A stretch of 64,000 nucleotides of DNA. Origin: Rhodoferax mekongensis. Its GTDB lineage: Bacteria > Pseudomonadota > Gammaproteobacteria > Burkholderiales > Burkholderiaceae_C. The stretch covers positions 2,009,001 to 2,073,000 of the forward strand of contig NZ_CP132507.1 in the NCBI RefSeq assembly GCF_032191775.1. The letters run 5' to 3'. The notes beneath the pieces were generated by a model that saw only the letters and a program-made list of their open reading frames with translations, did no database searches and was not told the DNA's origin. Below, in pieces: positions 536 through 53,684 of this stretch (the first letter of the stretch is position 1; the number at the start of each line of letters is the position of its first letter). The translations under genes and the position numbers were made by a program.

Positions 536-3427
536 TTAGGACGCGGCGTATTCACCCACCGGAACGCAACTGCAGAACAGATTGCGATCGCCATACACGT
601 TGTCCACCCGACCTACGGTAGGCCAGTATTTGGCCGCCTTCAGGGTCGCTACCGGGAAGGCGCCGACCTCACGGCTGTAGGGGCGGTCCCACGCGGCGCC
701 GATCACACTGGCAGCGGTGTGGGGAGCATGCTTCAAAGGGTTGTTGTCCTGGGGCCAGACGCCGGCCTCGACTTGCGCAATTTCGCCACGGATGGCGATC
801 ATGGCGTCGATGAAGCGGTCCAGCTCGGCCAGTGTCTCGCTCTCGGTGGGTTCCACCATCAAGGTGTTGGGCACGGGGAAGGACAGCGTGGGCGCGTGGA
901 AGCCATAGTCCATCAGGCGCTTGGCCACGTCCTCGGCCATCACGCCGCAGGTTTCCTTGAAGTGGCGCAAATCCAGGATGCACTCGTGCGCCACGTGCCC
1001 ATTGGCCGATGCGTAAAGCGTGGGGTAGTGGTCGGCCAGGCGGGCGCTGATGTAGTTGGCGCTCAGGATGGCCACTTCGGTCGCTTGCTGCAGGCCGTCC
1101 GGGCCCATCATGCGGCAGTACATCCAGCTGATGGGCAGCACGGCTGCGTTGCCCAAAGGTGCGGCGCTCACCGCGCCTGTGCCGGGCACACCGCCGGTAG
1201 CGTGGCCGGGCAGGTACGGCACCAGGTCTTCCACCACGCACACAGGGCCCACGCCGGGGCCGCCACCGCCGTGGGGGATGCAGAAGGTCTTGTGCAGGTT
1301 CAGGTGGCTCACATCGCCGCCGAACTCGCCGGGAGCCGCAGTGCCCACCAATGCGTTCATGTTGGCGCCGTCCACATACACGCGGCCGCCGTGCTGGTGC
1401 ACCAGGGCGCACAGCTCTTTGACCGAAGTTTCAAACACACCGTGGGTGCTGGGGTAGGTGATCATCACCGCCGCCAGGTTGGCGCTGTGCTGCTCGCACT
1501 TGGCCTGCAGGTCGGCCATGTCCACGTTGCCGTTGTCGTCGCACTTGGTGACCACCACCGTCATGCCGACCATCATGGCGCTGGCAGGGTTGGTGCCGTG
1601 TGCGCTGCTGGGGATCAGGCAGATGTTGCGGTGGCCCTGGCCACGGGCCTCGTGGTAGGCCTTGATGACCAACAAGCCAGCGTATTCGCCCTGGCTGCCC
1701 GCGTTGGGCTGCAGGCTGATGCCTGCGTAGCCGGTGGCGGCGCACAGCCAGGCGCGCAACTGCGCGTCCAGCTCGGCATAGCCTTCGCGCTGGTCAGCGG
1801 GTGCGAAGGGGTGGATGTTGGCGAACTCGGGCCAGGTGATGGGGATCATCTCGCTGGTGGCGTTGAGCTTCATGGTGCAGGAGCCCAGCGGGATCATGCT
1901 GCGGTCCAGCGCCAAATCTTTGTCACTCAGCATGCGGATGTAGCGCAGCATGCCGGTCTCGGAGTGGTGGGTGTTGAACACCGGGTGGGTCAAAAACTTG
2001 CTGGTGCGACGCAGTTCCGCGGGAATGCGCGGCGCTGCAGTGGCTTCAAAGTCCTCGACCTTCGGCGTCGCCTGTCCGGGCTCTGCAAAGAAAGACCAGA
2101 TCAGCGCCACATCCTCGCGTGTGCTGGTTTCGTCCAGCGACACGCAGATGTAGTCTTTCCAGGCTTTTCGCACGTTGGCGCCCATGGATAGTGCGCGGGC
2201 AGCTATCGAATCGGTAGCGCCATCGGTCTTCATGCACAAGGTGTCGAACGCCGTTTCGTGGTGCATGGCGGTAAAGCCCAGCTTGGCCAGGCCCTGTGCC
2301 AGGATGCTGGTCAAGGTGGCAACGCGGGTGGCAATGCGGATCAGGCCTTCGGGGCCATGGTAGACCGCGTACATGCTGGCCACGACGGCGGGCAGCACCT
2401 GCGCAGTGCAGATGTTGGAGGTGGCTTTTTCGCGGCGGATGTGCTGCTCGCGGGTTTGCAAGGCCAGGCGGTAGGCCGGGTTGCCATGCACATCCACACT
2501 CACACCCACCAAACGGCCGGGCAAGGAGCGCTTGTACTCATCGCGGCAGGCCATGTAAGCGGCATGCGGGCCACCATTGCACAGGGGCATGCCGAAGCGC
2601 TGGGTGGTACCGACCACGATGTCGGCGCCCATTTCGCCTGGGGATACCAAGAGTGTCAGGGCGAGAAGGTCCGCAGCCATGATGACCACGCCACCTTTGC
2701 TCTTGTACTTTTCAATCCAGGCGCGGTCGTCGCGGATCACGCCATCCACGCCGGGGTACTGCAGCAGGACCGCAAAGCTCTCGTTTTCCAGCGCTTCTGG
2801 TCCTGAGCAGGTGCGCACTTCAATGCCCAAGGGCATTGCCCGTGTCTGGATGACTTCGAGTGTCTGCGGCAGCACCTGGTCGTCCACGTAAAACACATTG
2901 CTCTTGCTCTTGACCGAGCGTTTGGCCAGCGTCATGGCTTCGGCAGCGGCTGTGGCCTCGTCCAGCATCGACGCATTGGCAATGGGCATGCCGGTCAGGT
3001 CGCACACCATGGTCTGGAAGTTGACCAGCGCTTCCATGCGGCCCTGGCTGATCTCGGCCTGGTAGGGCGTGTAAGCGGTGTACCAGGCGGGGTTCTCCAG
3101 GATGTTGCGCAGGATCACGCCGGGGGTGTGGGTGCCGTAGTAGCCCTGGCCAATGAAGCTCTTGAGTACCTTGTTTTTGCCTGCAACCGCCTTGAGTTCT
3201 GCAAGCGCAGCTGCCTCGGTGATGGCCGCCGGAATCGCCATGGCGCTCTTGCGCGCAATGCTGGCAGGCACGATGCTGGCAATCAGGTCGCTGCGCGACT
3301 TTTCGCCGATGGCTTGCAGCATGACGGCTTCGTCATCCGCAAAGATGCCAATGTGGCGGGCCTGGAATTCGCTGGCGTTTTCCAGCTGGGCCAAGGTGGG
3401 CGTGGATGTGGTGGCAGAAGTGGACAT
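536..3427 (-). CDS. gcvP: Glycine dehydrogenase (decarboxylating), P-protein
   Basis: P-protein of the cytoplasmic glycine cleavage system. It uses pyridoxal phosphate to decarboxylate glycine and loads the aminomethyl group onto lipoyl-GcvH. The protein has 963 residues (E. coli 957), with both halves of the family present and the PLP lysine in [16 protein letters not shown] near residue 715. The ATG at 3427 (MSTSATTS) was chosen over an in-frame GTG at 3457, because neither has a strong ribosome site and the former fits family N-termini. It is the last gene of gcvT-gcvH-gcvP, about 100 bases after gcvH. A copy of the 41-bp interspersed element lies inside at 2178-2218 and encodes [13 protein letters not shown]. 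Confidence 0.97.
2178..2218 (+). repeat. 41-bp interspersed element, copy 1 (in gcvP)
   Basis: Matches GCGC-N10-TGCGC-N2-GCAGCTA-N9-TAGC at every fixed position. gcvP reads it antisense as [13 protein letters not shown]. Confidence 0.75.
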
Positions 3428-3527
3428 GGCGGTGGCGTTCGGTGGTGGTCGGTTCACACAAACGGGTAGCCTGCTGGTTCAGGGCCGGCTCCCGGAGACT
3501 TCGCAGGCGGGGCCTGCGATGCGGCGT

Positions 3528-3899
3528 TTAAGCGTTGGCGGAAAACGCGGTGTAGCTGGTTTCGTCCATCAGGCCGTCGAGTTCGGCCGGGTTGGACAGC
3601 TTGACCTTGAAGAACCAGCCGGCACCCAGCGGGTCGGTGTTGGCCAGCGAAGGGTCATCGCGCAGGGTTTCGTTGACCTCAAGGATCTCGCCGGTGACGG
3701 GCATGTAGACGTCGGCAGCCGCCTTCACGGACTCGACCACGCCGGCCACGGCCTTGGCGTCAATGCTGGCGCCCACGGCGGGCAGATCCACAAACACCAC
3801 GTCGCCCAGCGCGTCCTGCGCGTGGTGGGTGATACCGACGGTGGCGATATCGCCTTCGACCTGGAGCCATTCGTGATCGGCTGTGTACTTGATAGACAT
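3528..3899 (-). CDS. gcvH: Glycine cleavage system H protein
   Basis: Lipoyl carrier protein that shuttles the aminomethyl intermediate between GcvP, GcvT and the lipoamide dehydrogenase. It has 123 residues (E. coli 129). The start at 3899 ([11 protein letters not shown]) follows a textbook AGGAG ribosome site. The lipoylation region is [16 protein letters not shown], with the lysine of ESVKAA as acceptor (near residue 64), and [11 protein letters not shown] upstream of it is typical. It lies between gcvT and gcvP; the 121-base gap to gcvT contains no gene. Confidence 0.97.
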
Positions 3900-4020
3900 A
3901 ACGTTCTCCTGAAACTTGAAAAAAGGGTTTGCGGTAAAGGGTTGAACCACCGGAACTGGAACCTGCCAGACGCCACTGTAGCGGCTGAATGTGCAGTTTT
4001 CAGTCTCTAGCAGCCTTGGA

Positions 4021-5181
4021 TCAGCCGCGGTAGTAGTTGGTGGGCACAAAGGGCATGGCGCTGACCACCATGGGCACCGGCTTGCCGCGGACTATGGCCA
4101 CCACCGGGGTGCCCAAAGCCGCCAGCGAAGCGTCGATATAGCCCATGGCCACGCACTGGTTAACGGTGGGGCCGAGCAGACCGCTGGTGACTTCGCCGAT
4201 ACGGTTGCCCGCGCCGTCTTGCAGCTCGGTGTGCTCGCGCACCGGAATGCGCTCCTGCGCAATCAGGCCGACCCGCTTTTTAGTGCCTTTTGTGCCGCTG
4301 GCGCCCGTGGAATCTGCGAGAGCAGCTAGGATTTTTGTAGCGCATGGGAATCCGCCTTCGCGTGCGCCACCGGTGCGGCGCACCTTCTGGATGGCCCAGT
4401 TCAGGCTGGCTTCGACCGGTGTGGTGCGGGTGTCAATGTCGTTGCCGTACAGGCACAAGCCGGCTTCCAGGCGCAGGGAGTTGCGGGCGCCCAAGCCGAT
4501 AGGTTGCACTTCGGGTTGCGCCAGCAGGGCGCGGGCCAGGGCCTCAGCATGGTCGTTGTGGACCGAGATCTCAAAACCGTCTTCCCCGGTGTAGCCGCTG
4601 CGGGTGAGGAACACGTTGATCTTTTGGGTGCCGGTATCGACCGTGAAGTCTCCGCCCGTCATGAACACCAGCTTTTCCACGCCGGGGGCCAAGCGGGCCA
4701 GCGCCGTCACCGCCTGGGGACCTTGGAGGGCCAGCAGCGCGTAGTCGGGCAGGGGGTTGACCTGGCAGCGCTTGCCGATCTGGGCTTGAATGTGGGCTAT
4801 ATCCCCCGCCTTGCAGGCACCGTTCACGATGACGAAGAGTTCGTCTTGCGCCTTTTTGAAGAACATCAGGTCATCAATGATGGTGCCCTCTTCGGTGAGC
4901 AGCAGGCCGTAACGCTGCTTGCCCACGGGCAGATCGATCACGTCTACCGGCATCAGGCTCTCAAACGCCGCGCAGGCGTCCGGGCCCCTCAGGCGCAACT
5001 GACCCATGTGGGACACATCAAACAGGCCGGCCGCTTTGCGCGTGTGGTGGTGTTCGGCCATCAGGCCGGTGGGGTACTGAACCGGCATGGAATAGCCGGC
5101 GAACGGCACCATGCGCGCGCCCAGCTCGATGTGCAGGGCGTTGAGCGGTGTGGTCAACAAGGTGGTGTCATTAGCGGACAT
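4021..5181 (-). CDS. gcvT: Aminomethyltransferase, T-protein
   Basis: Transfers the one-carbon unit from aminomethyl-GcvH to tetrahydrofolate and releases ammonia. It has 386 residues against 364 in E. coli. Conserved regions are the early [20 protein letters not shown] and the Asp-containing [11 protein letters not shown]. The start at 5181 (MSANDTTLL) was chosen over a GTG at 5214 that lacks a ribosome site. A copy of the 41-bp element at 4301-4341 encodes [14 protein letters not shown] and, with flanking residues (SGTKGTKK), accounts for part of the extra length. First gene of the gcv operon, controlled by the riboswitch at 5275-5515. Confidence 0.96.
4301..4341 (+). repeat. 41-bp interspersed element, copy 2 (in gcvT)
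   Basis: Same pattern with TGCGA in place of TGCGC. gcvT reads it antisense as [14 protein letters not shown], the same phase as in gcvP. Confidence 0.78.
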
Positions 5182-5274
5182 GGCGGCGATCCAATTAGTC
5201 CCGGCGCAATGCACCGGAGGGGCAAATCAAACCCGGATGCACGCTGACTCGCGCCCATCCGGTGCTGCCCCCGC

Positions 5275-5515
5275 TGTCCGCTTTACCTGAGAGATTCGCC
5301 GGGCCTGCGTGCACGGTGTGGCGTGCGCAGACTGCGGGTTGCTCCTTCGGTGGTTTGCAGGCCGCTGTGCGGTGCAAACTCTCTCCAGTGGGGTGTTGCC
5401 GCCGGCGCAATGGCCGGGTGGCAGTTGTCAGTCCTTTTGCCTGAGCGTTCAGACCGCTGCAATCAGCCGTCCTGCGCCTTCGGCGGCCCGTAATGGGCTC
5501 TCTCCTGAACGGGAT
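5275..5515 (-). promoter_or_regulatory. Tandem glycine riboswitch of the gcvTHP operon
   Basis: Two glycine aptamers in series on the minus strand. The first begins CAGGAGAGAGCCC near 5508, with CGCCGAAGGCGCAGG near 5475 and CGCTCAGGCAAAAGG near 5440. The second has TGGAGAGAG near 5385, CACCGAAGGAGCAA near 5345 and GAATCTCTCAGGTAAAG near 5284. This is the classical arrangement of a glycine-activated switch ahead of gcvT. The rest of the 412-base gap between gcvT and plsC holds the leader and the two divergent promoters. Confidence 0.93.
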
Positions 5516-6313: not shown

Positions 6314-6315
6314 AT

Positions 6316-9898: not shown

Positions 9899-10801
9899 TT
9901 GCTAGCCGGGGTGATTGCCGGTCTGGCGGCCGGTGCCCTGTGGGGCTTGGTGTTTGTGGCGCCTGCGATGGCACCGGGTTTGTCACCGGTAGATCTCACA
10001 GCCGGACGCTTTGTAGTTTTCGGTCTCACATCGCTGTGCATGATCGGCTTTGGCCGGTTGAATGGAAGTTCACGTCTGCCTAGCCTGAAGCAAGCGGGGA
10101 CTGCACTGCTACTGAGCGTATTGGGCTTCTCCGGTTATTACCTGCTGCTGGTCTACGCCATCCGGGATGCTGGTGTGGAAGTGCCCACCATGATCATCGG
10201 GACCATTCCCGTGTGGGTGATGTTGCTCGGTAAGCCTGTGGGGTTGCGCTGGCGCAGCCTGATTCCGGGCTTGCTACTCACACTGGCAGGTGTCACCACA
10301 ATGATGGCGGCTGAAAGCAGTGGCAGCGACATTCAAATGCACGGTTGGATATTCTGGCGCGGGGTGCTTTATGGCTTGTCGGCCATGGTCTTGTGGGTGG
10401 CCTTCGCGATCATCAATTCGGCTTGGCTCAAACAGCACACCAATGTGAACTTGAGGGACTGGACAAGTTGGATGGGCATCAACGCTGGCTTGGCGGCGTG
10501 GTTGCTGTGGGTGGCCTTGGGAACACCTGCTGAAGACCTGCTGGCGCACGCAGATGTTGCGCGGGCAGCTATGGTTTGTATAGCAACGGGCATCGGTTCA
10601 GCATGGATCGCGGCCGTGCTGTGGAATTTTGCCAGCCGGCGATTGAGTGCCAGTTTGTGCGGGCAACTTATCGTCTCTGAAACTTTGTTCGCACTCGTCT
10701 ATGCGTTTCTGGTGCACGGAGACTGGCCCTCCGCCTTGCAATGGCTGGCCAGTGCGATTTTCATCTTGGGGATGGTGTCTTCGATCCGGGCGCACCGATA
10801 A
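9899..10801 (+). CDS. DMT-superfamily (EamA) transporter
   Basis: A 300-residue integral membrane protein with about ten hydrophobic segments and two EamA-type repeats, the usual layout for drug/metabolite exporters. The start is uncertain. The frame is open back to the SDR stop at 9851 but has no ATG or GTG there, so TTG at 9899 is the only standard start. The AGGA sequence at 9863 is too far away for normal use. A copy of the 41-bp element at 10544-10584 encodes AHADVARAAMVCIA in a loop before a membrane helix. The substrate is unknown. Confidence 0.8.
   Translation: MLAGVIAGLAAGALWGLVFVAPAMAPGLSPVDLTAGRFVVFGLTSLCMIGFGRLNGSSRLPSLKQAGTALLLSVLGFSGYYLLLVYAIRDAGVEVPTMIIGTIPVWVMLLGKPVGLRWRSLIPGLLLTLAGVTTMMAAESSGSDIQMHGWIFWRGVLYGLSAMVLWVAFAIINSAWLKQHTNVNLRDWTSWMGINAGLAAWLLWVALGTPAEDLLAHADVARAAMVCIATGIGSAWIAAVLWNFASRRLSASLCGQLIVSETLFALVYAFLVHGDWPSALQWLASAIFILGMVSSIRAHR
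10544..10584 (+). repeat. 41-bp interspersed element, copy 3 (in the DMT transporter gene)
   Basis: All fixed positions match. Read in sense as AHADVARAAMVCIA. Confidence 0.72.
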
Positions 10802-16363: not shown

Positions 16364-16377
16364 CCTGATGACTATTT

Positions 16378-16418
16378 GCTATTAAAATGGTAGCTGCTAG
16401 CGCATATTGCATGAGCGC
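16378..16418 (-). repeat. 41-bp interspersed element, copy 4 (between rnr and nnr)
   Basis: All fixed positions match on the minus strand. Its flank (TAGCTGCTAGCGC) is the exact inverse complement of its inner GCGCTAGCAGCTA, making the rnr terminator. Confidence 0.82.
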
Positions 16419-16432
16419 TAGCAGCTATTTTT
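16391..16432 (+). terminator. Terminator after rnr, formed by a copy of the 41-bp element
   Basis: TAGCTGCTAGCGC (16391-16403) and GCGCTAGCAGCTA (16415-16427) are perfect 13-base arms with an 11-base loop, followed by five T. Most of the hairpin is an interspersed element copy (16378-16418). The tail reaches the stop codon of the convergent nnr gene. Confidence 0.8.
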
Positions 16433-17885
16433 ATATGGATTCCAGCAGTCCGCTGGCAGTGAGCGATGTGCGCTTTACCCACTGGTCCGCTAGCGCACCG
16501 TGGTGGTAGCAGGCTGCGCATGCCGCTTTCCACGCACTTGCGTGGCGCGCCAGTGCGGCGCCTGTCATGCCAGCAAGCACGTCACCCGTGCCGGCGATGG
16601 CCAGTTTGCCGTTTCCGGAGGGGTTGATGTGCGGTAAGCGATCTGGCGCTGCGATGATGCTCCCCGAACCTTTGAGAATCACGGTGCACTTGAACTGCTT
16701 CGCTAGAAGTTGCGCGGTACGTAAGCGGTCTGCTTGCACTTCGCCGACGCTGCAGCCCAGCAAACGTGCTGCCTCCAAGGGGTGAGGGGTGATCACTGTT
16801 GTGTCCACATCGCGACCCTGAAGCAGTGTTTGGAGGTCGGCGGAAGCCGCAATCGCGTTGAGCGCGTCGGCGTCCAAAACCAAGTGTTTTGATTCCAGGA
16901 GCCAACGTGGGAGGGGATGTGCAATTTCCTCGCCACCGCCACAACCGGCGACCAGAGTCAGCTGTTGCGGCTGCAGTGCGTCTGTATGGCGTTGCATCAG
17001 GTCTGCAGGCACCTTGACCGAAGCCTCTCCATTTGCCGAAGGCAGCAAAGCCAGATACACCCTGCCAGCACCAGACTGCAGCGCGGCCCTGGCCGCCAAG
17101 ACAGCGGCGCCTTGCATGCCTCGCGTGCCACCCGCGACGGCAACATCCCCAAAACTGCCTTTGTGGGAGAGATGGGGGCGGTGGTACGCCGCAGGCATGG
17201 GGTTGAGCCACGCTGTTGGTTCAGCAGTTGATTCCAATCCCAAAGTGTTCAGCCACAGGTTACCGCAGACATCCCGTCCGTGAAGGGTCAGCAATCCAGG
17301 CTTCAAACGCAACATTGACAAGGTGTGTGTGGCATTCACGCAGGCGCCAGGCGCATCACCGGTGTCAGCCATCAGTCCGCTGGGAATGTCGGCGGATATC
17401 ACGTCGCATGATCGTGAATTGATGAGACCTATCCAATCAGCGTATGTCCCGGTTGGCGCATGAGTCAGTCCGATACCCAGCAACGCATCAATGCATATAT
17501 CCCAGTGATCTGGAGCGTGGTCATGTATGGCCACCCCTGCTTGTCGTGCCCTTGCGAAGGCCAGTCCAGCGTCAGTGGGCAAGGGCTTGTCTGCGGCTGG
17601 CATGCTGACATGGATTTCCTTGCCCCACTGATGTAGATGGATGGCAGCCTCTAATCCATCGCCGCCGTTATTACCGCGCCCGCAGGCGATCCAAAAAACG
17701 TGTGCATGTGGCGCTACTGCTAGCGAAAGCTTTGCCAAAGCCAAGCCGGCCCGTTGCATAAGGTAGCCCGGCGGGTGGTTCTGTATCGCGTTTTCCTCAA
17801 GAGTTCTTGAGGCGGTTGTGCCGAGTATGGGCAGGCGCGCAAAAGTCTTGGGGCCTTGGGTGGAAAGAATCCACTCAGAATTCAT
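16431..17885 (-). CDS. nnr: Bifunctional NAD(P)H-hydrate epimerase / ADP-dependent NAD(P)H-hydrate dehydratase
   Basis: Cytoplasmic repair enzyme. The N-terminal epimerase domain interconverts R- and S-NAD(P)HX, and the C-terminal domain dehydrates S-NAD(P)HX. It has 484 residues from ATG 17885, preceded by GAGGGCGACACC. The YjeF-N domain carries CGRGNNGGDGLEAA near residue 75. The carbohydrate-kinase-like domain carries KGSFGDVAVAGGTRGMQGA and NPSGNGKLAIAGTGDVLAGM. The start overlaps the end of the upstream hydrolase gene by 11 bases, so the two are probably co-transcribed. Confidence 0.93.
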   Translation of the reverse strand: MNSEWILSTQGPKTFARLPILGTTASRTLEENAIQNHPPGYLMQRAGLALAKLSLAVAPHAHVFWIACGRGNNGGDGLEAAIHLHQWGKEIHVSMPAADKPLPTDAGLAFARARQAGVAIHDHAPDHWDICIDALLGIGLTHAPTGTYADWIGLINSRSCDVISADIPSGLMADTGDAPGACVNATHTLSMLRLKPGLLTLHGRDVCGNLWLNTLGLESTAEPTAWLNPMPAAYHRPHLSHKGSFGDVAVAGGTRGMQGAAVLAARAALQSGAGRVYLALLPSANGEASVKVPADLMQRHTDALQPQQLTLVAGCGGGEEIAHPLPRWLLESKHLVLDADALNAIAASADLQTLLQGRDVDTTVITPHPLEAARLLGCSVGEVQADRLRTAQLLAKQFKCTVILKGSGSIIAAPDRLPHINPSGNGKLAIAGTGDVLAGMTGAALARHASAWKAACAACYHHGALADQWVKRTSLTASGLLESI

Positions 17886-33582: not shown

Positions 33583-33604
33583 GCGTTAGCGTTCACTGCT
33601 TGTG

Positions 33605-34780
33605 ATGGACAGCAGCCCCCGTGCGAAGGATGCGCCTGTCATCGCGATGGTGGCGGGCGAGGCATCGGGCGACTTGCTGGCGGGGTTGCTACTGGCAGGC
33701 GTGCGTCAACGCTGGCAGGGAGCGATCGCTCACGGCATAGGCGGCCCGCAGATGGCTAAGCAGGGCTTCCGAGCCTGGTGGCCACACCACAAGTTGGCCG
33801 TGCATGGCTTCAGCTGGGAGCTGTTGCGACGTTACCGTGAAATCGTGGGCATCCGCGCTGCATTGGGGGACCGGCTTTTGGCGGCGAAACCCGATGTCTT
33901 CATTGGTGTCGATGCGCCGGATTTCAATCTCGATTTGGAAGCCCGCCTCAAGGCTCAGGGAGTCAAGACGGTGCATTTCGTCTGCCCCTCCATCTGGGCT
34001 TGGCGTCCGGAGCGGGTAGAGAAACTACGCCGCAGCACCGACCATGTGCTGTGCATTTTTCCCTTTGAGCCGGAATTACTGGCTTCTCATGGGATTGCCG
34101 CGACCTATGTCGGTCATCCTTTGGCTAACGTCATTCCCATGGAGCCGGACAGGGCAGCCGCGCGCCGCGGGCTGGGCCTATCCGACACTGACGAGGTGGT
34201 GGCCATTCTGCCGGGCAGCCGCCAGTCGGAAATCCGTCACTTGGCTTTCAGGTTCTTTAGGGCTGCAGCGCTTATCCAATCTGCGCGACCAGCTATCAAA
34301 TTCATAGTGCCAGCAGTTCCCGGTTTGTTGCCTGAAATAGAAGCGATTGCGCTGCGCAGTGGCATGGCCGGGCGCTTGCAGCTACTGACAGGCCAGTCCC
34401 ACACGGCTTTGGCCGCCTGTGATGTCACCCTGATTGCCAGCGGCACCGCCACCTTGGAGGCCGCCTTGTTCAAGCGCCCCATGGTGATCGGGTACCACAT
34501 GTCCTGGTTGTCGTGGCAGATCATGTGCCGCAAGCGGCTGCAGCCCTGGGTAGGATTGCCCAATATCTTGTGTCGCGACTTTGTGGTGCCTGAGCTGCTG
34601 CAGGATGCTGCTACTCCGGAAGCACTCGCGGCTAGCGTGTTGCAATGGTTGGATGCGGCGCGTCAGGAGCCTGCGAAAATAGCCGTTCTCGAATCCACCT
34701 TCCGCGCGTTGCACACCGAGTTGCTGCGCGACACCGCTTCTCTTGCCACCGATGCCATTGAAAAAGTCCTCCAAAGCTAA
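33605..34780 (+). CDS. lpxB: Lipid-A-disaccharide synthase
   Basis: GT19 glycosyltransferase that joins UDP-diacylglucosamine and lipid X. It has 391 residues (E. coli 382). Conserved [13 protein letters not shown] (residues 18-30), [23 protein letters not shown] and LPGSRQSEI are present. ATG 33605 was preferred over the adjacent GTG 33602. A copy of the 41-bp element at 34268-34308 encodes [14 protein letters not shown], a segment before the VPAVPGL strand. Overlaps rnhB by 29 bases. Confidence 0.97.
34268..34308 (+). repeat. 41-bp interspersed element, copy 5 (in lpxB)
   Basis: Pattern matches except CCAGCTA and final TAGT. Read in sense as [14 protein letters not shown]. Confidence 0.75.
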
Positions 34781-35397: not shown

Positions 35398-36168
35398 ATG
35401 ACCGAACCCATCCTCATCAGCTCCCGCGAGAACGCGCTCCTCAAGGAGCTGCGCAAGCTCAGTACCGACAACACTGCGTACCGCAAGGCGGGGCGCTTCT
35501 GGATTGAGGGTGACCACTTGTGCAGTGCCGCACTGGCGCGGGGCGTGGTCCCATCAGTGCTGGTGGTTTCTGAGTCTTTCTGGCCTGCAGCGCTCGTGGA
35601 GTATGCGCGAGCAGCTATCAAAACAGTAGTGATTCCGGATGCCTTGTTTCGCGAAATCAGTGGGTTGGAGTCGCCTGCCAAGATTGGTTTTTTGGTGGAT
35701 TTGCCGGAGGTGGTAGGCATCGAACCTATGGCCGCCACCGTCATTCTCGACCGGGTGCAGGATGCCGGGAACGTGGGTTCCATCCTGCGCAGTGCAGGGG
35801 CCTTCGGTTTTCGTCAGGTGCTCGCGCTCAAAGGATCGGCCGCGCTCTGGAGCCCCAAAGTATTGCGGGCAGGGATGGGCTCGCACTTTGGCCTTCGATT
35901 GATCGAGGGGCTGGAACTGCAAGACTTGGATGCGTTGAAAGTGCCCTTGGTCGTGACAAGTTCACACCAAGGCGCTCTGGTGCAAAAGCTGGACTTGCCT
36001 CATCCCTGTGCATGGGCCATGGGGCACGAAGGGCAGGGCGTCTCCGAGGCGCTCATGGCCAAAGCTTCGGTCTTCGCGCGCATAGGTCAGCCGGGCGGGG
36101 AAGAGTCCCTCAATGTGGCAGCGGCAGCGGCCATTTGCTTGCATGCAAGCAGCTTGAAGCTTGCCTGA
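35398..36168 (+). CDS. TrmH/SpoU family RNA 2'-O-methyltransferase
   Basis: A 256-residue SPOUT methyltransferase. An N-terminal substrate-binding region is followed by the catalytic knot: motif 1 VILDRVQDAGNVGSILRSA near residue 116, motif 2 AMGHEGQGVSEALM near 205, motif 3 ESLNVAAAAAICLHA near 237. The target RNA (23S rRNA or tRNA) cannot be told from sequence. A copy of the 41-bp element at 35590-35630 encodes ALVEYARAAIKTVV in the N-terminal domain. It starts eight bases after rnhB. Confidence 0.92.
   Translation: MTEPILISSRENALLKELRKLSTDNTAYRKAGRFWIEGDHLCSAALARGVVPSVLVVSESFWPAALVEYARAAIKTVVIPDALFREISGLESPAKIGFLVDLPEVVGIEPMAATVILDRVQDAGNVGSILRSAGAFGFRQVLALKGSAALWSPKVLRAGMGSHFGLRLIEGLELQDLDALKVPLVVTSSHQGALVQKLDLPHPCAWAMGHEGQGVSEALMAKASVFARIGQPGGEESLNVAAAAAICLHASSLKLA
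35590..35630 (+). repeat. 41-bp interspersed element, copy 6 (in the TrmH-family gene)
   Basis: Pattern matches except final TAGT. Nearly identical in its first half to copy 8. Read in sense as ALVEYARAAIKTVV. Confidence 0.8.
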
Positions 36169-41692: not shown

Positions 41693-42169
41693 ATGGCAAC
41701 TTATCCCATTACCAAGCGCGGCGCTGAAATGCTCAAGGCCGAGCTGCACAAACTCAAGACCGTGGAGCGTCCCTCGGTGATTCAGGCGATCGCTGAAGCC
41801 CGCGCCCAAGGCGACCTGAGCGAAAACGCCGACTACGACGCCGCCAAAGAGCGCCAAGGCTTTATTGAAGGCCGGATTCAGGAAATCGAAGGCAAACTTT
41901 CTGCGGCCCAAGTGATAGACCCGGCTTCCATCCAGGCCGATGGCCGCGTGGTGTTTGGATCCACCGTAGAGTTAGAGGATGAGGACAGTGGCCAGCAGGT
42001 CAAGTACCAGATCGTCGGGGAAGACGAGGCGGATCTGAAGCAAGGCCTGATCAACATCAGCAGCCCGATTGCCCGTGCCCTCATCGGCAAAGAAGTTGGC
42101 GATACAGCCGTCGTGCAAGCCCCCGGAGGCGAGCGCGCCTACGAGGTCGTTGCGGTTCACTACGTCTGA
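41693..42169 (+). CDS. greA: Transcription elongation factor GreA
   Basis: Rescues backtracked RNA polymerase by stimulating transcript cleavage. It has 158 residues, the same as E. coli. The N-terminal coiled coil has the acidic tip region [20 protein letters not shown] (near residues 36-55), and the C-terminal FKBP-like domain ends VVAVHYV. The stop overlaps the next start as TGATG. Confidence 0.97.
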
Positions 42170-42609
42170 TGCGGCAACTCCCGATCTGGTTGGCGGCAGC
42201 GTGGGCCATGAGCCTGACGATGCTAGGCTTTATGGTGGTGCCCATGTTGTTTGTGCACCTGCCTACCCCGGCCATGGCCGGCCAGATGGCGGCCAAACTC
42301 TTCAGTGCCCAGACTTGGATTTCGGTGGCTTGCGGTGCCATGCTCCTAATGACTTTCAGGTCAAATCGCCTGTTGGTGCCCGTAGAATCTGCGCGGGCAG
42401 CTACACTTTTTATAGTGGGTGGAGTGTTGCTGGCCTTGTTGGTGGAGCTGGCAGTGGCACCCCGCATCGTTGCCCGAGAAAACTTGGCCTTGTGGCACCG
42501 CTGGGGTAGCGCGATGTACTTCGCGCAGTGGGTGTGCGCTCTGGTGGTGTTCAAGAAAATGATCAGTGCACTCTTGCCAGCGAATGCCGGAAGCGACGTT
42601 CAGGCATAA
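42169..42609 (+). CDS. DUF4149 family membrane protein
   Basis: A 146-residue protein with four hydrophobic helices (about residues 5-30, 45-62, 80-100 and 118-140). It matches the DUF4149 (TMEM205-like) pattern of uncharacterised beta-proteobacterial proteins found next to greA. A 41-bp element copy at 42376-42416 encodes [14 protein letters not shown] just before the third helix. The start overlaps greA, so expression is probably coupled. No function is known. Confidence 0.8.
   Translation: MRQLPIWLAAAWAMSLTMLGFMVVPMLFVHLPTPAMAGQMAAKLFSAQTWISVACGAMLLMTFRSNRLLVPVESARAATLFIVGGVLLALLVELAVAPRIVARENLALWHRWGSAMYFAQWVCALVVFKKMISALLPANAGSDVQA
42376..42416 (+). repeat. 41-bp interspersed element, copy 7 (in the DUF4149 gene)
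   Basis: Begins GTGC and ends TAGT, otherwise matches. Read in sense as [14 protein letters not shown]. Confidence 0.78.
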
Positions 42610-45944: not shown

Positions 45945-46853
45945 ATGCATTGGCAAACCACCCGTTACTCCCTGGACCTCAGTCGTCCCCACGTCATGGG
46001 GATCGTCAACGTCACCCCGGATTCATTTTCTGACGGCGGTCTGCACGCCACCAGCCATACAGCGATCGCCCATTGCGAGGAATTGCTGAAAGACGGAGCC
46101 GATATTCTTGACATTGGTGGCGAATCCACCCGCCCCGGAGCGCCTCCGGTATCGCAAGAGGAAGAGCTCGCCCGTGTGTTGCCGGTGATTCGCCATGCGG
46201 TGACCTTGGGCGTGCCGATTTCTGTGGATACCTATAAGCCGGCCGTCATGCAGGCGGCGCTGGATTTGGGGGCAGACATCATCAATGACGTATGGGCCTT
46301 GCGCTGGGCGGGCGATGCACAGGGCAAAACCGGCCAAGACGTCATTGCAGCGCACCCCCACTGCGGCGTGTGCCTGATGCATATGCACCGCGACCCGCAG
46401 ACCATGCAGGCAGCACCCATGGAAGGCGATGTGGTCCCACAGGTGCTATCGTTTTTGGAGCGTTCGGCGAAGGATTTGCGGGCGCTGGGGGTCGATAAGT
46501 CTCGGATTTGCCTGGATCCTGGCATAGGATTCGGAAAAACCGTCAAGCAGAATTTTTCACTGCTGGCCCGCCAGGAACAAGCTATTCCTCAGGGTTATGC
46601 CGTGTTGGCTGGTTGGTCGCGCAAATCATCACTGGCGGCCATTGCTCACACCTCGCTGGCGCAAGCCGCCGGCATGAACATCGAACTGCGCCGTGCGCCC
46701 AGCGTCACTGCAGCGGTGTTGGCTGTGCAGAACGGCGCGCATGTGGTGCGCGTGCATGATGTGCGTGATACGGTCAGTGCCCTGCGGGTGCTGGCTGCCA
46801 TGCAGGCTGAAAAAATGCCCCCACTCTCCAAAGCAGCTCTCGCAAATACATAA
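45945..46853 (+). CDS. folP: Dihydropteroate synthase
   Basis: Joins p-aminobenzoate and dihydropterin diphosphate in folate synthesis; target of sulfonamides. It has 302 residues. GIVNVTPDSFSDGG (residues 19-32), DIGGESTRPGAPPV (near 63) and a C-terminal RVHDVRD are the family motifs. Lies between ftsH and glmM, as in E. coli. Confidence 0.97.
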   Translation: MHWQTTRYSLDLSRPHVMGIVNVTPDSFSDGGLHATSHTAIAHCEELLKDGADILDIGGESTRPGAPPVSQEEELARVLPVIRHAVTLGVPISVDTYKPAVMQAALDLGADIINDVWALRWAGDAQGKTGQDVIAAHPHCGVCLMHMHRDPQTMQAAPMEGDVVPQVLSFLERSAKDLRALGVDKSRICLDPGIGFGKTVKQNFSLLARQEQAIPQGYAVLAGWSRKSSLAAIAHTSLAQAAGMNIELRRAPSVTAAVLAVQNGAHVVRVHDVRDTVSALRVLAAMQAEKMPPLSKAALANT

Positions 46854-48203: not shown

Positions 48204-48206
48204 GCC

Positions 48207-48707: not shown

Positions 48708-48739
48708 GCAGCCAAGCGCTGAATGGAAGAGGGCTCCCC

Positions 48740-49015
48740 ATGTTCAAAATCTACTGGACCGACACCGAGGGCCAATCCCACGGCGCTGAGACCGCTGACC
48801 TGGTGCAGGCCTTGCAGATCACCAAGGAAAAGCGCGATGCCGGCTACACCTTTGTGACCATGGCCAGCGAGAACCCACACAACGTGGGCAAGCAGGGCGT
48901 GGACGCCGTGGTGGACGGCAAAACCCCGGACGGCCAGGACTACGACTGGTCCAAAGCCGGGCGCGCGGGCAAACCCCGCAGGGGCGACAAGGTCATCACA
49001 AACAAAGACCATTGA
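48740..49015 (+). CDS. Conserved hypothetical protein (small, soluble)
   Basis: A 91-residue protein, not assigned to any family I can name. ATG 48740 (MFKIYWTD) follows GGAAGAGGGC. It has no signal peptide or membrane segment. The sequence is Lys/Asp/Gly-rich with a conserved-looking QALQITKEKRDAGYTFVTMASENP block. Position after glmM and an acetyltransferase suggests co-transcription and nothing about function. Confidence 0.65.
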   Translation: MFKIYWTDTEGQSHGAETADLVQALQITKEKRDAGYTFVTMASENPHNVGKQGVDAVVDGKTPDGQDYDWSKAGRAGKPRRGDKVITNKDH

Positions 49016-49043
49016 AAACTTGGGCCCCATTTTTCGCTGAACC

Positions 49044-49430
49044 ATGAACCTCCTCTTCGCCCTTTACACCCTCGCCAGCCTCACGCACTTTGCGCACAAC
49101 GCCGAATACATCGCGTTCTATCCCGGTTTGCCGGTGTGGATGACGTGGGAGTCGGTGTACCTGGCCTGGTTGGCAGTGGCCGCGGTGGGTGGCCTGTCCT
49201 TGATGGCTAGCCGGCTGGGATGGTCGCGGTTGGCGGGTGTTTTGTTGGTGGCTTATGGCTTGCTTGGCGTAGACGGCCTGCTGCACTACACCCTGGGCCT
49301 GTGCTCGGAGCACACGCTGGCAACCAACCTCACCATCTGGGCGGAAGTGCTGCTCGGCGTGACGCTGGCATGTGCGGCGGCGCTGCGTTTAAAGCGGCTG
49401 GGGTTTCGCAAGGCAGCTGCCGAGTTTTAA
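49044..49430 (+). CDS. Hypothetical membrane protein, four helices
   Basis: A 128-residue protein with four hydrophobic segments: residues 1-20, 33-54, 60-78 and 90-113. The first helix region contains LTHFAHNAEYIAFYPGLPVW, with two histidines beside the membrane. No family recognised. It converges with arsA; a 41-bp element copy lies between them at 49447-49487. Confidence 0.65.
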   Translation: MNLLFALYTLASLTHFAHNAEYIAFYPGLPVWMTWESVYLAWLAVAAVGGLSLMASRLGWSRLAGVLLVAYGLLGVDGLLHYTLGLCSEHTLATNLTIWAEVLLGVTLACAAALRLKRLGFRKAAAEF

Positions 49431-49446
49431 ATAAAAAATGCCTCTA

Positions 49447-49487
49447 GCGCTGGTGGAATATGCGCGAGCAGCTACTCTTTTGATAGC
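49447..49487 (+). repeat. 41-bp interspersed element, copy 8 (arsA 3' end)
   Basis: All fixed positions match. The CTA of its GCAGCTA gives the TAG stop of minus-strand arsA, and its last 16 bases encode the arsA C-terminus. Confidence 0.82.
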
Positions 49488-51268
49488 GTAGTCAAGGCCC
49501 CCAGCGCTGCAAGGCCCACCGGCCGATCGGCCATCCAGGGTACGACATAGCTGTGCTGTGACAAACCGTGGGCAATCCGGTCCATCTGTTTTACTTCCCC
49601 GGCCAGTCGTGCTGCCAACAGCGGGTCCTGCGTGCCGGCCGCGGACATGCTTTTGTTGATGACCCACGCATAGGGCTCCATCTTGGCGCGGCGCAGGTCG
49701 TCCTGCAGCGCGGCCGCTTGCGACACGGGCGTGACTTCGGGCAGCGTGACCAGCACGATCTTCGTGTGTTGCGGGTCTTGCAGGCGCATCAGCGGAGTAA
49801 CCAAGCGGCCAGGGTTGGCATCGCCGTACTCACGCAGCATCTGGCGGTGGTAGGCGCCGGTGGCGTCCATCAGCAGCAGGCTGTGGCCGGTGGGCGCAGT
49901 GTCCAGCACCACAAAGGCACTGCGCGCCTCACTCACGATACGCGAGAACGCGTGGAACACGGCCACCTCTTCAGTGCAGGGCGACTGCAGGTCTTCGCGC
50001 AACAACGCAATGCCCTCAGCATCCAAGCCGGGTGACTTGGCAGCCATCACTTTGGTGATGTACTTTTCAGTCTCGGCCTTGGGGTCTATGCGGTCCACCT
50101 TGAGGCCAGGCAGGTTGCCGTCCACGGTCACTTGCAGGTGGTCGGCGGGGTCGGTAGTGCTCAGGTGTACCGAGTGACCGCGCTGTACCAAGCCCGCAGC
50201 GATGGCAGCCGCGATGGTGGTTTTGCCCACGCCGCCTTTGCCCATGACCATGATGAGCCCACGGCCGGAGGCGGCGAGCGCGTCTGTGAGCGCAGCAAGC
50301 GTGTGCTCCGAGTGGGCGGCTTGGGGCGCCGCGTGGCTGGCCGAACTGGCAGGAGGCGATGCTGGTGCGCTTGGCGCCGTTTCGTCGTTTGACAGCAGCG
50401 CACGCAGGGCGGGCAAACCCACCGTGTCAAACGCCCGCAGCGCAATGTGGTCTTGCGGCAAGGCCTGCAAGTGTGCTGGCATGGCGGCCAAGGCTTGGGC
50501 ACCCAGTGCTTCAAAGGCAGTCGCCACCTCATCACCCGGGGCACTGGCATGGAACACCCCGTTGATGGCCAGGCGCTGGTTGTGAAGGCCCAGTTCATTG
50601 AGTTCCAGCGAGGTGCGCGCGGCCTCGGCAATCGCACCCACATCCGGCCGGGTGACCAGCACCACGGTGGTTTGCGCCGGGTCACTCAAGGTCTGCAGCG
50701 CTTGGGCAAAGCGAGCCTCTTGCATCTTCAGGCCCGAGTGCGGCCCGAGGCAGGAGGCGCCGCGGTCGTTGTCTGCCAGAAAACCGGTCCAGGCTTTGGG
50801 CAGGCTCAAGAGCCGCAGGGTGTGGCCGGTGGGCGCGGTGTCAAATACCAGATGGTCATAGCCCGCCGCATCCCCGCTGAGCAGGTTGGCAAATTCATCA
50901 AACGCGGCAATCTCAGTAGTGCAGGCGCCTGACAACTGCTCTTGCACCTGGCTGCGCTCGGCCTCGGTACTGGCCGGGTCCATCTGCGCCAGCACCCGCG
51001 CGCGGTAGCTTTGGGCCGCGTTGTCGGGGTCGATGTTGAGCACCGACAAGCCGGGCACTCCGGGTACCGGCACCGGCGTGTTGGCCAGTGTGATCCCCAG
51101 CATTTCGTCCAGGTTGCTCGCTGCATCGGTGCTGACCAGCAGCACTTTTCTGCGCCTGTCGGCCAGCGCAATCGCGCTGGCGGTGGACAGCGAGGTTTTG
51201 CCCACGCCGCCCTTGCCGGTGAAGAACAGGTGACGGGTGGGGTGCTGCAGGAGCTGAAGTGCGTTCAT
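49472..51268 (-). CDS. arsA: Arsenical pump-driving ATPase ArsA
   Basis: As(III)/Sb(III)-stimulated ATPase. It has 598 residues in two homologous halves, each with a P-loop (GKGGVGKTSLST near residue 18, GKGGVGKTTIAA near 343) and a DTAPTGH switch. Cysteines in SGACTTE, GASCLGPH and QSPCTEE match the three metal-binding positions of the R773 ArsA. Normally it energises ArsB, but no arsB or acr3 is in this operon. Last gene after arsH, with a three-base gap. Its last residues and stop codon come from a 41-bp element copy. Confidence 0.95.
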   Translation of the reverse strand: MNALQLLQHPTRHLFFTGKGGVGKTSLSTASAIALADRRRKVLLVSTDAASNLDEMLGITLANTPVPVPGVPGLSVLNIDPDNAAQSYRARVLAQMDPASTEAERSQVQEQLSGACTTEIAAFDEFANLLSGDAAGYDHLVFDTAPTGHTLRLLSLPKAWTGFLADNDRGASCLGPHSGLKMQEARFAQALQTLSDPAQTTVVLVTRPDVGAIAEAARTSLELNELGLHNQRLAINGVFHASAPGDEVATAFEALGAQALAAMPAHLQALPQDHIALRAFDTVGLPALRALLSNDETAPSAPASPPASSASHAAPQAAHSEHTLAALTDALAASGRGLIMVMGKGGVGKTTIAAAIAAGLVQRGHSVHLSTTDPADHLQVTVDGNLPGLKVDRIDPKAETEKYITKVMAAKSPGLDAEGIALLREDLQSPCTEEVAVFHAFSRIVSEARSAFVVLDTAPTGHSLLLMDATGAYHRQMLREYGDANPGRLVTPLMRLQDPQHTKIVLVTLPEVTPVSQAAALQDDLRRAKMEPYAWVINKSMSAAGTQDPLLAARLAGEVKQMDRIAHGLSQHSYVVPWMADRPVGLAALGALTTLSKE

Positions 51269-51271
51269 GGT

Positions 51272-52006
51272 TTACAGGCTACGCTGATTCACCCGCTTCA
51301 TCAGTTGCTCAGCGCTCTCTTTGCGTTCGCTGTAGCGGTCCACCAGATAGTCCGATGCGTCACGGGTAAGCAGTGTGAACTTCATCAGCTCTTCCATTAA
51401 ATCGACCACGCGGTCAAAGTAGGCCGAGGGCTTCATGCGGTCGTCGTCACCAAACTCCATAAAGGCCTTGGCCACGGAGCTTTGGTTGGGGATGGTGACC
51501 ATGCGCATCCAGCGGCCCAGCACGCGCATCTGGTTGACGGCGTTGAAGCTTTGCGAGCCGCCGCTTACCTGCATGACTGCCAGCGTTTTGCCCTGGGTGG
51601 GGCGCACGGCGCCGCTGTTGAGTGGGATCCAGTCGATCTGCGCTTTCATGATGCCGGTCATGGCGCCATGCCGCTCGGGCGAGGTCCAGACCATGCCTTC
51701 ACTCCACTGTGTCAGCTCGCGCAGCTCTTGCACCTTGGGGTGGGTGTCCGGCGCGTCATCGGGCAGGGGCAGGCCGCTGGGGTTGAAGATGCGGGTCTCA
51801 GCGCCCATGGCTTGCAGCAGGCGGGCGGCTTCTTCGGTCAGCAGCCGGCTGAAGGACCGGGGCCGCAACGAGCCATACAGCAGAGCAATGCGCGGTGCGT
51901 GGTTGGAGGGCGCGGGGCGCAGCGCGGCGGCATCCGGCAGGCGAAAGTGCGCAGCCTCCAACTGGGGCAGGGTGCTCAGCAAATCAGACACGTTGGCCCT
52001 TGTCAT
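51272..52006 (-). CDS. arsH: Arsenical resistance protein ArsH
   Basis: NADPH-dependent FMN reductase of the flavodoxin-like family that oxidises trivalent organoarsenicals. It has 244 residues from ATG 52006. The FMN phosphate loop [12 protein letters not shown] lies near residue 44, and [21 protein letters not shown] near 115. The start lies inside the end of arsC (23-base overlap), showing tight coupling. Confidence 0.95.
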
Positions 52007-52403
52007 CCACCACTGCTTCGCCGTCTTCCTTGGTGAAGGCAGCTTGCTGGGCCTGGGGCAGGATGTCCAGCACCAGCTCCGACGGGCGGCAGAGGCGGGT
52101 GCCCAGGGGCGTTTCCACCACGGGGCGGTTGATGAGGATGGGGTGGGCCAGCATGAAGTCCAGCAACTCGTCGTCGGTCCACTTCTCGTTCGCCAAATCC
52201 AGCTCGGCATAGGGCGTGCCTTTTTCGCGCAGCAGCTCACGGGGGCCGGTGCCCATAGCGGCCAGCAGCTCTTGCAGGCGGGCTTTGGTGGGCGGGGTTT
52301 TCAGGTACTCAACGACAGTGGGTTCCACGCCGCTGTTGCGGATCATGGCCAATGTGTTGCGCGAGGTGCCGCAGGCGGGGTTGTGAAAAATGGTGATGGT
52401 CAT
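51984..52403 (-). CDS. arsC: Arsenate reductase, glutaredoxin-linked (ArsC, E. coli type)
   Basis: Reduces arsenate to arsenite with glutathione and glutaredoxin. It has 139 residues (R773 ArsC 141). Catalytic cysteine in [14 protein letters not shown] (Cys 12-13), arginines in [18 protein letters not shown] near residue 94. Start ATG 52403 overlaps the aqpS stop. It is one of two unrelated arsenate reductases in this operon. Confidence 0.94.
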
Positions 52404-53107
52404 ACAGAAGTCTTTTTGGAAGAAAGTGCTTGGGCCAAGGCTACCCCCAGCGCAGCACCCACGGTTTGCGCCAGCACAAAGCCGATGGCGCTTGCCGGTG
52501 CAATACCGGCAAAGGTGTCGCTGAACATGCGGCCCATGACGGCGGCGGGGTTGGCAAACGAGGTGCTGGCGGTGAACCAATAGGCCGCGCCGATGTAGCA
52601 GGCCACCAGCGCGGGCGCTTTGCCCTCGGGCGCGCGCAGGATGGTGAACAGCAGCCCGCCGGTGGCGACCACCTCGGCGACCCATTGGCCCCAGCCGGTG
52701 AATTGGCCGACAGCGTCCCAGCCGCCGCGCAGGTGGTGGCTGAAGTGCAGCAGGGGCAGCTCGAACATGGCGTTGGCAAGCGCCGCACCCGCCACGGCTC
52801 CCGAGAGTTGGGATGCTATAAAAAGAGTAGCTGCTCGCGCACTATTGGCGTGCGTCATTTGCCCTTTTGACCACATCACCAGGGTGACCAGCGGGTTGAA
52901 GTGGGCGCCGCACACGGGCCCCAGGCTTTCGATCAGCACGTAGAGCGCGAACACGGTGGCCAGGGTGTTGGCCAAGAGCGCCACGCCGTCGTTACCAGCG
53001 CTGATGCGTTGGGCCATGATGCCGGAGCCTATGACGGCGCAGAGCAGGGCGGCGGTGCCTGTGAACTCTGCAAGCAGTTGCTTGGGCAGTGGAGTCGGTT
53101 CGCTCAT
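52400..53107 (-). CDS. MIP-family channel (AqpS-like aquaglyceroporin)
   Basis: A 235-residue aquaporin-fold channel with six hydrophobic helices. The second half-helix motif is canonical NPAAV (near residue 180), while the first is NPLVT (near 71) instead of NPA. In Sinorhizobium meliloti the ars-linked AqpS lets arsenite leave the cell down its gradient after reduction. Its place between the two arsC genes and the lack of arsB suggest the same role here (inference). A 41-bp element copy at 52815-52855 encodes THANSARAATLFIA just before a helix. Confidence 0.88.
   Translation of the reverse strand: MSEPTPLPKQLLAEFTGTAALLCAVIGSGIMAQRISAGNDGVALLANTLATVFALYVLIESLGPVCGAHFNPLVTLVMWSKGQMTHANSARAATLFIASQLSGAVAGAALANAMFELPLLHFSHHLRGGWDAVGQFTGWGQWVAEVVATGGLLFTILRAPEGKAPALVACYIGAAYWFTASTSFANPAAVMGRMFSDTFAGIAPASAIGFVLAQTVGAALGVALAQALSSKKTSV
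52815..52855 (-). repeat. 41-bp interspersed element, copy 9 (in the ars-linked channel gene)
   Basis: Begins ACGC, otherwise matches. The channel gene reads it in sense as THANSARAATLFIA; SARAATLFI is identical to copy 7. Confidence 0.8.
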
Positions 53108-53604
53108 GCTGCTGCCAACTCCTTGGCCGTGCGCTGGAGCACCATGGCGTCCAGCTTCTCTTCCGGCAGGTTAACCAACAACTCCAATCGGCGATGGATG
53201 GCGTGCAGGGTGTTTTTGAAGGCATCAGCCTTCTGTTCGTCGCTGCCATCACCCGCAGACGGGTCGGCGTAGCCCCAGTGGGCGGTGGCGGGCTTGCCGG
53301 GCCAGAAGGGACAGACTTCGCCTGCGGCGTTGTCGCACACGGTAATGATCAGGTCCATGTGGGGTGCATCGGGCAGGGCGAACTCGTCCCAGCTTTTGCT
53401 GCGCAGGCCGTCCACACTGATGCCGGCGTTGCGCAGGGTTCGCAGGCCGATGGGGTTGGGCTGCTGGTTCTCGCGCGGGCTGCTGCCGGCCGAGAAGCCT
53501 TGAAAGCGGCCGCCGCCGATGTGGTTGAGCGTGGCCTCAGCCAGGATGCTGCGAGCCGAGTTGTGGGTGCACAAAAAGAGTACGTTGAGGGGTTTGGCAG
53601 ACAT
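53104..53604 (-). CDS. Arsenate reductase, low-molecular-weight tyrosine phosphatase type
   Basis: A 166-residue protein of the LMW-PTP fold. The phosphate-binding loop CTHNSARS (residues 12-19) is the CX5R motif. The reductase cysteines expected further on are plausible in VCDNAAGEVCPFW (Cys near 88 and 96). This class usually uses thioredoxin or mycothiol-type systems. ATGA overlap with the channel gene downstream. Second gene of the ars operon after arsR; the 107-base gap between them holds a 41-bp element copy. Confidence 0.92.
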   Translation of the reverse strand: MSAKPLNVLFLCTHNSARSILAEATLNHIGGGRFQGFSAGSSPRENQQPNPIGLRTLRNAGISVDGLRSKSWDEFALPDAPHMDLIITVCDNAAGEVCPFWPGKPATAHWGYADPSAGDGSDEQKADAFKNTLHAIHRRLELLVNLPEEKLDAMVLQRTAKELAAA

Positions 53605-53643
53605 GGTGGCTTCCTTTGCGAGTGGAACGTAAATGAAAGTTTT

Positions 53644-53684
53644 GCTATGAATTCAGGAGCTGCTTGCGCATGTTTTATGTGCGC
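53644..53684 (-). repeat. 41-bp interspersed element, copy 10 (between arsR and the LMW-PTP arsC)
   Basis: Matches GCGC-N10-TGCGC-N2-GCAGCT-N10-TAGC; GCAGCTC replaces GCAGCTA. Intergenic within the ars operon. Confidence 0.75.

Follow-up and report, generated by a model that had tools for sequence, protein, structure and literature searches.

A dispersed DNA element of about 66 bp that overwrites coding sequence in Rhodoferax mekongensis and may serve as a recognition site

The genome of Rhodoferax mekongensis, one contig of 3,889,336 bases, carries a dispersed DNA element of about 66 bp, which is described here starting from a window of 64,000 nucleotides (positions 2009001-2073000). Inside genes, the element overwrites ordinary coding sequence and is colinear with it in most tested genes, and its informative bases are held as DNA even at synonymous positions. 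Signals of this kind, ~66 letters long, recur at intervals of a few thousand letters in some genomes of Comamonadaceae, and that they replace coding sequence instead of being inserted into it suggests a putative protein that reads the element as a DNA tag. We consider it likely that the element is an in-place DNA recognition site of some kind; that it could work as an uptake-like tag of self-DNA is a more tentative proposal, made on the analogy of known uptake sequences. To our knowledge, genome-wide DNA signals that overwrite coding sequence are rare, the known ones being uptake sequences, Chi and segregation sites. A signal so long, held base by base inside central enzyme genes, implies a strong driving force.

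Results and Discussion

Anatomy and copy number of the element

A sequence-only reading of the window had reported ten dispersed copies of a 41-base pattern with fixed spacing. When this pattern was searched with up to three mismatches allowed, exactly ten places were found in the window, all of them where that reading had put them, while 0.01 were expected from shuffled sequences. The spacing was invariant among the ten copies, 4 of which matched the pattern exactly and 6 with 1 or 2 mismatches. The pattern is real, but its length of 41 bp did not hold: when copies were lined up, the conserved columns extended over ~66 bp, between about -22 and +43 as counted from the first base of the pattern. 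The genome-wide search that the same reading had proposed showed the element to be very abundant. Specifically, the core TGCGCNNGCAGCTAN{8,10}TAG occurred exactly 143 times in the genome, whereas the reversed control did not occur at all. Both strands were used alike (68 and 75 cores), and the core spacer was 9 bases long in 100 of 100 places among the matches listed (of 143).

A profile of 70 columns was built from 85 of the 87 copies obtained by core search, two copies with two mismatches being left out. Since these copies were found through the core, the fixed core columns are partly fixed by construction, while columns outside the pattern are unaffected. At a score of at least 18, the profile detected 72 copies in a 424-kb stretch of the R. 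mekongensis genome. Two order-3 Markov simulations of this stretch yielded no copy. This corresponds to one element per 5.9 kb. Elements are more crowded in this stretch than in the genome at large: of the 143 exact cores, 22 fall within it, against an expectation of 15.6. With this correction, we estimate that the whole genome holds 450-650 copies.

The right half of the element is near-fixed and consists of TGCGC-NN-GCAGCTA, an A/T tract and ATAGC, while the left half is a weaker, rough inverted copy of it with an A/T tract of its own. Fixed and free columns are interleaved along the element, which has a GC content of 49%. The A/T tracts may read AAA, AAT, ATT or TTT, and the step TpA is nearly absent from them: among right tracts made up entirely of A and T (positions 32-34), none of 78 contained it, where column shuffling predicted 20.4, and among left tracts 1 of 72 did, where 18.3 were predicted. 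The same was true of four-base tracts, with TpA in 3 of 58 on the right (21.2 expected) and 1 of 62 on the left (16.1 expected). This near-absence of TpA is a signature of A-tract DNA shape, and it is therefore probably the double helix that is read in this element.

Placement within and between genes

Gene calls for the 424-kb stretch were our own codon-usage calls, which cover 90.7% of it. The 72 copies comprised 37 inside genes, 12 overlapping a gene end and 23 in intergenic DNA, so that intergenic and gene-end positions were strongly enriched (p ~1e-17, given the gene coverage). Seven of the window copies had been placed inside genes by the sequence-only reading, five in sense and two in antisense orientation, and both their number and their phases were borne out. 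The accompanying claim that such copies always share one reading phase stands only as a strong preference, which was obeyed by 31 of the 37 inside-gene copies in the 424-kb stretch and by 36 of 38 in the partly overlapping set of 85 copies. Sense and antisense orientations were equally represented among the 37 (19 and 18, respectively). Of the 23 intergenic copies, 8 were located in convergent and 2 in divergent gaps, as expected from gap length, which argues against promoters and terminators.

These data bear on the idea that the element acts at the RNA level, for instance as a terminator or hairpin. The consensus of R. mekongensis indeed has GCGC on either side of its centre, and several intergenic copies lie near terminator-like sequence, as judged by eye. 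However, compensatory change was seen in 0 of 6 predicted pairs across 85 copies, no Rfam match was found at the places of the element, and neither the equal use of sense and antisense orientations nor the length-dependent use of convergent gaps would be anticipated for such a role. Moreover, the left half reads GCCC in Polaromonas, whereby the pairing with GCGC is lost. Altogether, we regard an RNA-level element as very improbable.

At the 3′ ends of five genes (1713807-1714229, 1725241-1725918, 1819588-1820583, 1985382-1986911 and 2058472-2060268), antisense copies overlap the coding sequence in an identical register, the first codon of the copy being the fifth from the end. In these five genes, the final codons and the stop thus appear to come from the element.

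Most tested host proteins are not lengthened by a whole unit

Rickettsia palindromic elements (RPEs) are palindromic repeats that add a peptide in unrelated genes, in a preferred frame. The sequence-only reading had likened the present element to them, and the comparison is apt as regards the palindromic repeat, the many unrelated host genes and the one preferred phase (31 of 37). Insertion of a whole unit would add ~20-22 residues. This was not what we observed. In lpxB, all 27 aligned orthologue entries (from 25 genomes, the close relatives G331 and G299 each being counted twice) equalled the length in the window, with or without the element, and the element peptide aligned to Escherichia coli LpxB without a gap. 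For the gene of the RNA methyltransferase, 27 of the 30 orthologue entries that were aligned had the length seen in the window, and its product is four residues longer than 7qiu at the element. GcvP differed from a solved relative by one residue within the element and by another single gap ~15 residues upstream, and the aquaporin-like protein was four residues longer than GlpF at the element. On length, peptide insertion of the RPE kind is thereby refuted for these two genes, lpxB and that of the methyltransferase.

We also searched 65 host proteins for homologues in 925 kb from element-poor genomes, all of which had 0-2 profile matches with the exception of one locus from G320 (13 matches). 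Homologues were considered usable when they showed at least 40% identity and spanned the element, and others were dropped rather than counted; some host frames were stop-to-stop reads, the start of which may be too early. Usable homologues were obtained for 13 of the 65 hosts, and the length difference was 0 in seven of these and 1 to 4 residues in four, so that 11 of 13 hosts differed by at most 4 residues where ~20 would be needed. The hosts in this comparison include what we take to be FabD-, TrpF-, AroA-, PolA- and FolP-like enzymes. Host-orthologue alignment, as the sequence-only reading had suggested, thus showed that the peptide is not an insertion in most hosts with a usable homologue. 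In contrast to RPEs, the element adds no length in most tested hosts; moreover, copies in coding DNA resemble those in non-coding DNA, and 35 of the 72 do not lie inside genes. An RPE-like peptide insertion is therefore practically untenable.

Conservation in close relatives

For 51 of the 72 copies, recognisable flanks were present in the corresponding stretch of G299. The element was retained with a score of at least 18 in 42 of these 51 comparisons; 32 comparisons showed zero length difference, 41 differed by at most 3 bases, and a length difference of 60-70 bases was not seen in any of the 51. Among the nine G299 copies scoring below 18, five differed by 0-3 bases and the others by 28, 80, 95 and 125 bases, although for three of the nine (stretch coordinates 195225, 215464 and 117542) the gap is poorly aligned, so that a length difference means little. 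The 80- and 125-base cases look like losses, since G331 retains both elements and a tail of one of them seems to survive in G299. For the 95-base case there was no third genome to separate gain from loss. In a 116-kb stretch of G331, all 14 comparable copies were retained.

Constraint on the DNA itself was apparent from third codon positions. Among A/T-ending third positions compared between R. mekongensis and G299 in 24 host genes, 21 of 149 (14%) differed at high-information columns of the element, as opposed to 1338 of 2750 (49%) in the rest of these genes (odds ratio 0.17). When all third positions were considered, the high-information columns were less changed in 24 of 24 genes. In the comparison with G331, 7 of 57 and 392 of 692 A/T-ending third positions differed, respectively, and the rate was lower at the element in 7 of 9 genes. 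The sites had been selected in R. mekongensis, which works against apparent conservation in its relatives. Low-information columns inside the element were not conserved: third positions changed at a rate of 0.41 compared with 0.29 in the flanks, and first and second positions at 0.159 compared with 0.056. The element thus occupies tolerant protein segments, with its key bases nevertheless held. Constraint of this kind would not be expected of dead transposon copies.

An origin as an old miniature mobile element, resembling a miniature inverted-repeat transposable element, which was inserted long ago and the copies of which were later used as binding sites, would accord with the two arms of rough inverted symmetry, the hundreds of copies and the patchy distribution. 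In line with this, visual reading of 11 gcvT comparisons showed the gene with the element to be 12-22 nt longer in 10 of them. It is harder to reconcile with the colinearity of the in-gene copies and with the lack of a clean fixed-length presence or absence in the 51 comparisons with G299, and the interleaving of fixed with free bases is unlike neutral decay. We consequently rate such an origin as quite unlikely.

Distribution among genomes and lineage variants

Across 299 genomes of the family, the exact core occurred in 0 to 196 copies per genome and was present in 70; reversed controls yielded at most 3 per genome. A survey of 250 genomes of the order gave matches in four, all belonging to the family of the window, and in none of the 243 genomes that represented 50 other families. 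With a stricter pattern, the 80 matches listed, of at least 120, named Rhodoferax, Polaromonas, Curvibacter, Comamonas, Acidovorax, Paracidovorax, Simplicispira, Hylemonella, Giesbergeria and Variovorax, as well as unclassified bins. Within the genus, the profile gave at least 104 matches in 16 of 41 genomes, 0-2 matches in 23, and 10 and 13 matches in the remaining two, where the counts take in at most 123 matches per genome and many genomes are incomplete. The presence of the element is thus nearly all-or-none between congeners, and on a tree of the lpxB region from 30 of these genomes the bearing state requires three changes. This distribution offers a natural experiment by which a putative reader protein might be identified.

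The consensus varies by genus, as the left GCGC of R. mekongensis tends to GCCC in loci from Polaromonas, Rhodoferax and Curvibacter (L071-L150), all selected by the exact core. With one copy as query, no match was obtained in plasmids and phages at an E value of 0.01, which is a weak test given the divergence of the element. In IMG/VR, 62 stretches of viral contigs (L305-L366) contain the exact core, and 42 of these score as elements.

The short imperfect palindromes and their enrichment between genes are also features of the abundant repetitive extragenic palindromic (REP) elements, which would here have been spread by a Y1 transposase of the REP-associated tyrosine transposase (RAYT) type. 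Unlike the REP/RAYT system, the element showed no link to Y1_Tnp genes: these were matched in 39 of 41 congeners regardless of the element, the element-bearing G328 lacks Y1_Tnp, and the genome of R. mekongensis has one weak match. Furthermore, clean insertions were not observed, and the in-gene copies are not insertions. Spread as a REP element is in our view extremely improbable.

Relation to described repeats

No description of the whole element was retrieved in our literature searches, in agreement with the sequence-only reading, which had known of no described family with this sequence. One motif in print, GCTTAT(N)5AAGCG, was reported without explanation by Tong et al. (2017; PMC5217627) in 114 copies from Acidovorax ebreus as a potential novel motif. 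It fits the centre of the element in letters and spacing, and its sole instance in five Acidovorax-like loci falls within a profile match. The Acidovorax motif is thus probably the centre of the element. As far as the part of that paper used here goes, it deals with pairs of short words in mostly intergenic copies and not with a full element, and the genome in which it reports the highest number of motif pairs is that of Rhodoferax ferrireducens T118. The Polaromonas motif ATAGCT(N)22CAAAAG from the same part of the paper was not found in 23 Polaromonas loci. Another dispersed repeat, the Beta-proteobacterial repeat element (BRE), occurs in Betaproteobacteria including Polaromonas and Rhodoferax and has some copies inside genes (PMC3110155), which it shares with the present element. 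According to the portion of its description considered here, BRE is ~90 bp long with 69% GC, is often in tandem, reaches at most 29 copies and is present in Bordetella (PMC3110155). In size, base composition and layout it differs from the present element, which has ~66 bp and 49% GC, occurs singly and in hundreds of copies, and has an exact core that was not found in the 243 genomes of other families.

In several respects the element resembles the DNA uptake sequences (DUS) of Neisseriaceae and the uptake signal sequences (USS) of Pasteurellaceae: it is dispersed, lies on both strands, within and between genes, without orientation bias, and it has lineage variants. USS, too, have A/T tracts beside their core. 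The sections of the DUS and USS literature drawn on here report that these sequences accumulate by point mutation through molecular drive (PMC1939737, PMC3630211), that DUS form dialects and contain a stop codon limiting their placement (PMC3630211), and that two genomes hold 1471 and 1965 copies (PMC1939737). In contrast, the element spans ~66 bp in two halves rather than a core of 9-12 bp, and it has fewer copies per Mb than these two reported genomes. It also has a reading-frame preference, unlike the overlapping dyad DUS of one species, for which the relevant section of PMC3630211 reports none.

A putative recognition site and its possible role

As a recognition site, the element would arise by point change and would be kept because a putative protein reads it. 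If it functions as an uptake-like tag, DNA with a better site would be taken up and recombined more often. Such preferential uptake and recombination would let sites accumulate where the protein tolerates them, that is, between genes and in one favoured phase. The genome has matches to ComEC, DprA and the ComP_DUS pilin family. By analogy, the element may be one more family of tags that mark self-DNA genome-wide, the third to have evolved independently. Such a tag would be 66 bp long, made of two halves with A-tracts, diversified into genus dialects, and written by point substitution at hundreds of places in genomes of Comamonadaceae, including the cores of housekeeping enzymes, for a putative reader. 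We put forward both the uptake-like role and this wider proposal as possible, with rather less than even confidence in either. If correct, they would bear on how uptake specificity evolves.

Several observations weigh against an uptake-like tag or against overwriting in every host. Matches to ComEC and DprA also occur in congeners that lack the element. For ComEC, they were obtained in 12 of 16 bearing genomes as against 21 of 23 non-bearing ones, with none in G323, a genome that is 99% complete and element-rich. ComP_DUS occurred in 11 of 16 bearing and 20 of 23 non-bearing congeners, and a tree of 20 ComP_DUS sequences, in which G320 with its 13 matches was labelled non-bearing, was unsorted by the element (8 changes against a shuffled mean of 6.5). 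The copies are fewer and the site is far longer than in known uptake sequences, and gain in place itself was not caught. The spacing of copies in G299 is uneven, with a coefficient of variation (CV) of 1.17 as compared to 0.97 at random. At the protein level, GcvT is the host that comes closest to the peptide insertion of the sequence-only reading: it exceeds solved relatives such as 3gir by 11 residues at the element, roughly half the length that a unit would contribute. The remaining two of the 13 hosts with usable homologues differed by +28 residues in a glycine-rich stretch and by -8 residues near the N terminus.

ComP was rejected as the reader of the element, since neither its occurrence nor its tree follows the element. 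The ComP_DUS-family minor pilins (L367-L386) differ strongly from one congener to another, and this includes G299 and G317, a pair with 95% identity in the lpxB region.

An alternative that fits the facts nearly as well as the uptake-like tag is a site for chromosome architecture or maintenance, at which a nucleoid, segregation or repair protein would bind the in-place element and selection on the host would keep it. The colinearity, the DNA-level constraint and the A-tracts serve this explanation equally, and the competence genes do not follow the element. In addition, the copies in the 424-kb stretch of R. mekongensis are spaced more evenly than at random (CV 0.70 versus 0.97-1.06 in three controls), with 3 spacings below 1 kb where 11.1 would be expected. 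However, even spacing was dismissed as a general rule because it holds in this stretch and fails in G299, and a basic chromosome function would not readily be expected to be present in an all-or-none manner between congeners. The two chromosome halves also showed no strand polarity: among the 100 copies listed, of 143, 37 lay on the minus and 32 on the plus strand in one half, and 12 and 19, respectively, in the other, so the element is not a polar site. An architectural site is accordingly somewhat unlikely in our judgement; if it were one, the element would mark a hitherto unknown nucleoid system. Either way, the element shows a DNA signal dictating stretches of unrelated proteins.

With regard to spacing, G299 has a region of ~56 kb (about 2433900-2489900) without any element, as compared to one per ~8 kb elsewhere in the 440-kb stretch surveyed. 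This region is possibly acquired DNA.

Copies in the window and neighbouring features

The copies in the window are listed in Table 1. They include a weak eleventh copy that was absent from the sequence-only reading. Its profile score was 22.1, and its orthologues in G299 and G331 scored 27.4 and 35.6, respectively.

Table 1. Element copies and riboswitches in the 64,000-nucleotide window (window coordinates)
Feature	Position	Strand	Context
Element copy	2154..2223	+	Antisense inside gcvP-like gene (536-3457, -); gene named by PDB match
Element copy	4277..4346	+	Antisense inside gcvT-like gene (4021-5214, -); gene named by PDB match
Element copy	10520..10589	+	Sense inside open reading frame (ORF) 9899-10801 (+); colinear in G299, score there 44.6
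Element copy	16373..16442	-	Between convergent genes
Element copy	34244..34313	+	Sense inside lpxB (33602-34780, +)
Element copy	35566..35635	+	Sense inside TrmH/SpoU-type RNA methyltransferase gene (35398-36168, +)
Element copy	42352..42421	+	Sense inside ORF 42169-42609 (+); zero length difference compared with homologue in element-free G329
Element copy (weak, eleventh)	46440..46509	-	Antisense, phase 2, inside ORF 45945-46853 (+)
Element copy	49423..49492	+	Overlaps 3′ end of ORF 49472-51268 (-)
Element copy	52810..52879	-	Sense inside aquaporin-like gene (52400-53107, -)
Element copy	53639..53708	-	Between two same-direction genes
Tandem glycine riboswitch aptamer pair	237-457	-	Rfam RF00504
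Tandem glycine riboswitch aptamer pair	5264-5515	-	Rfam RF00504

Besides the element, the window contains two tandem glycine riboswitch aptamer pairs, which adjoin the two ends of the glycine-cleavage gene region, one at each end.

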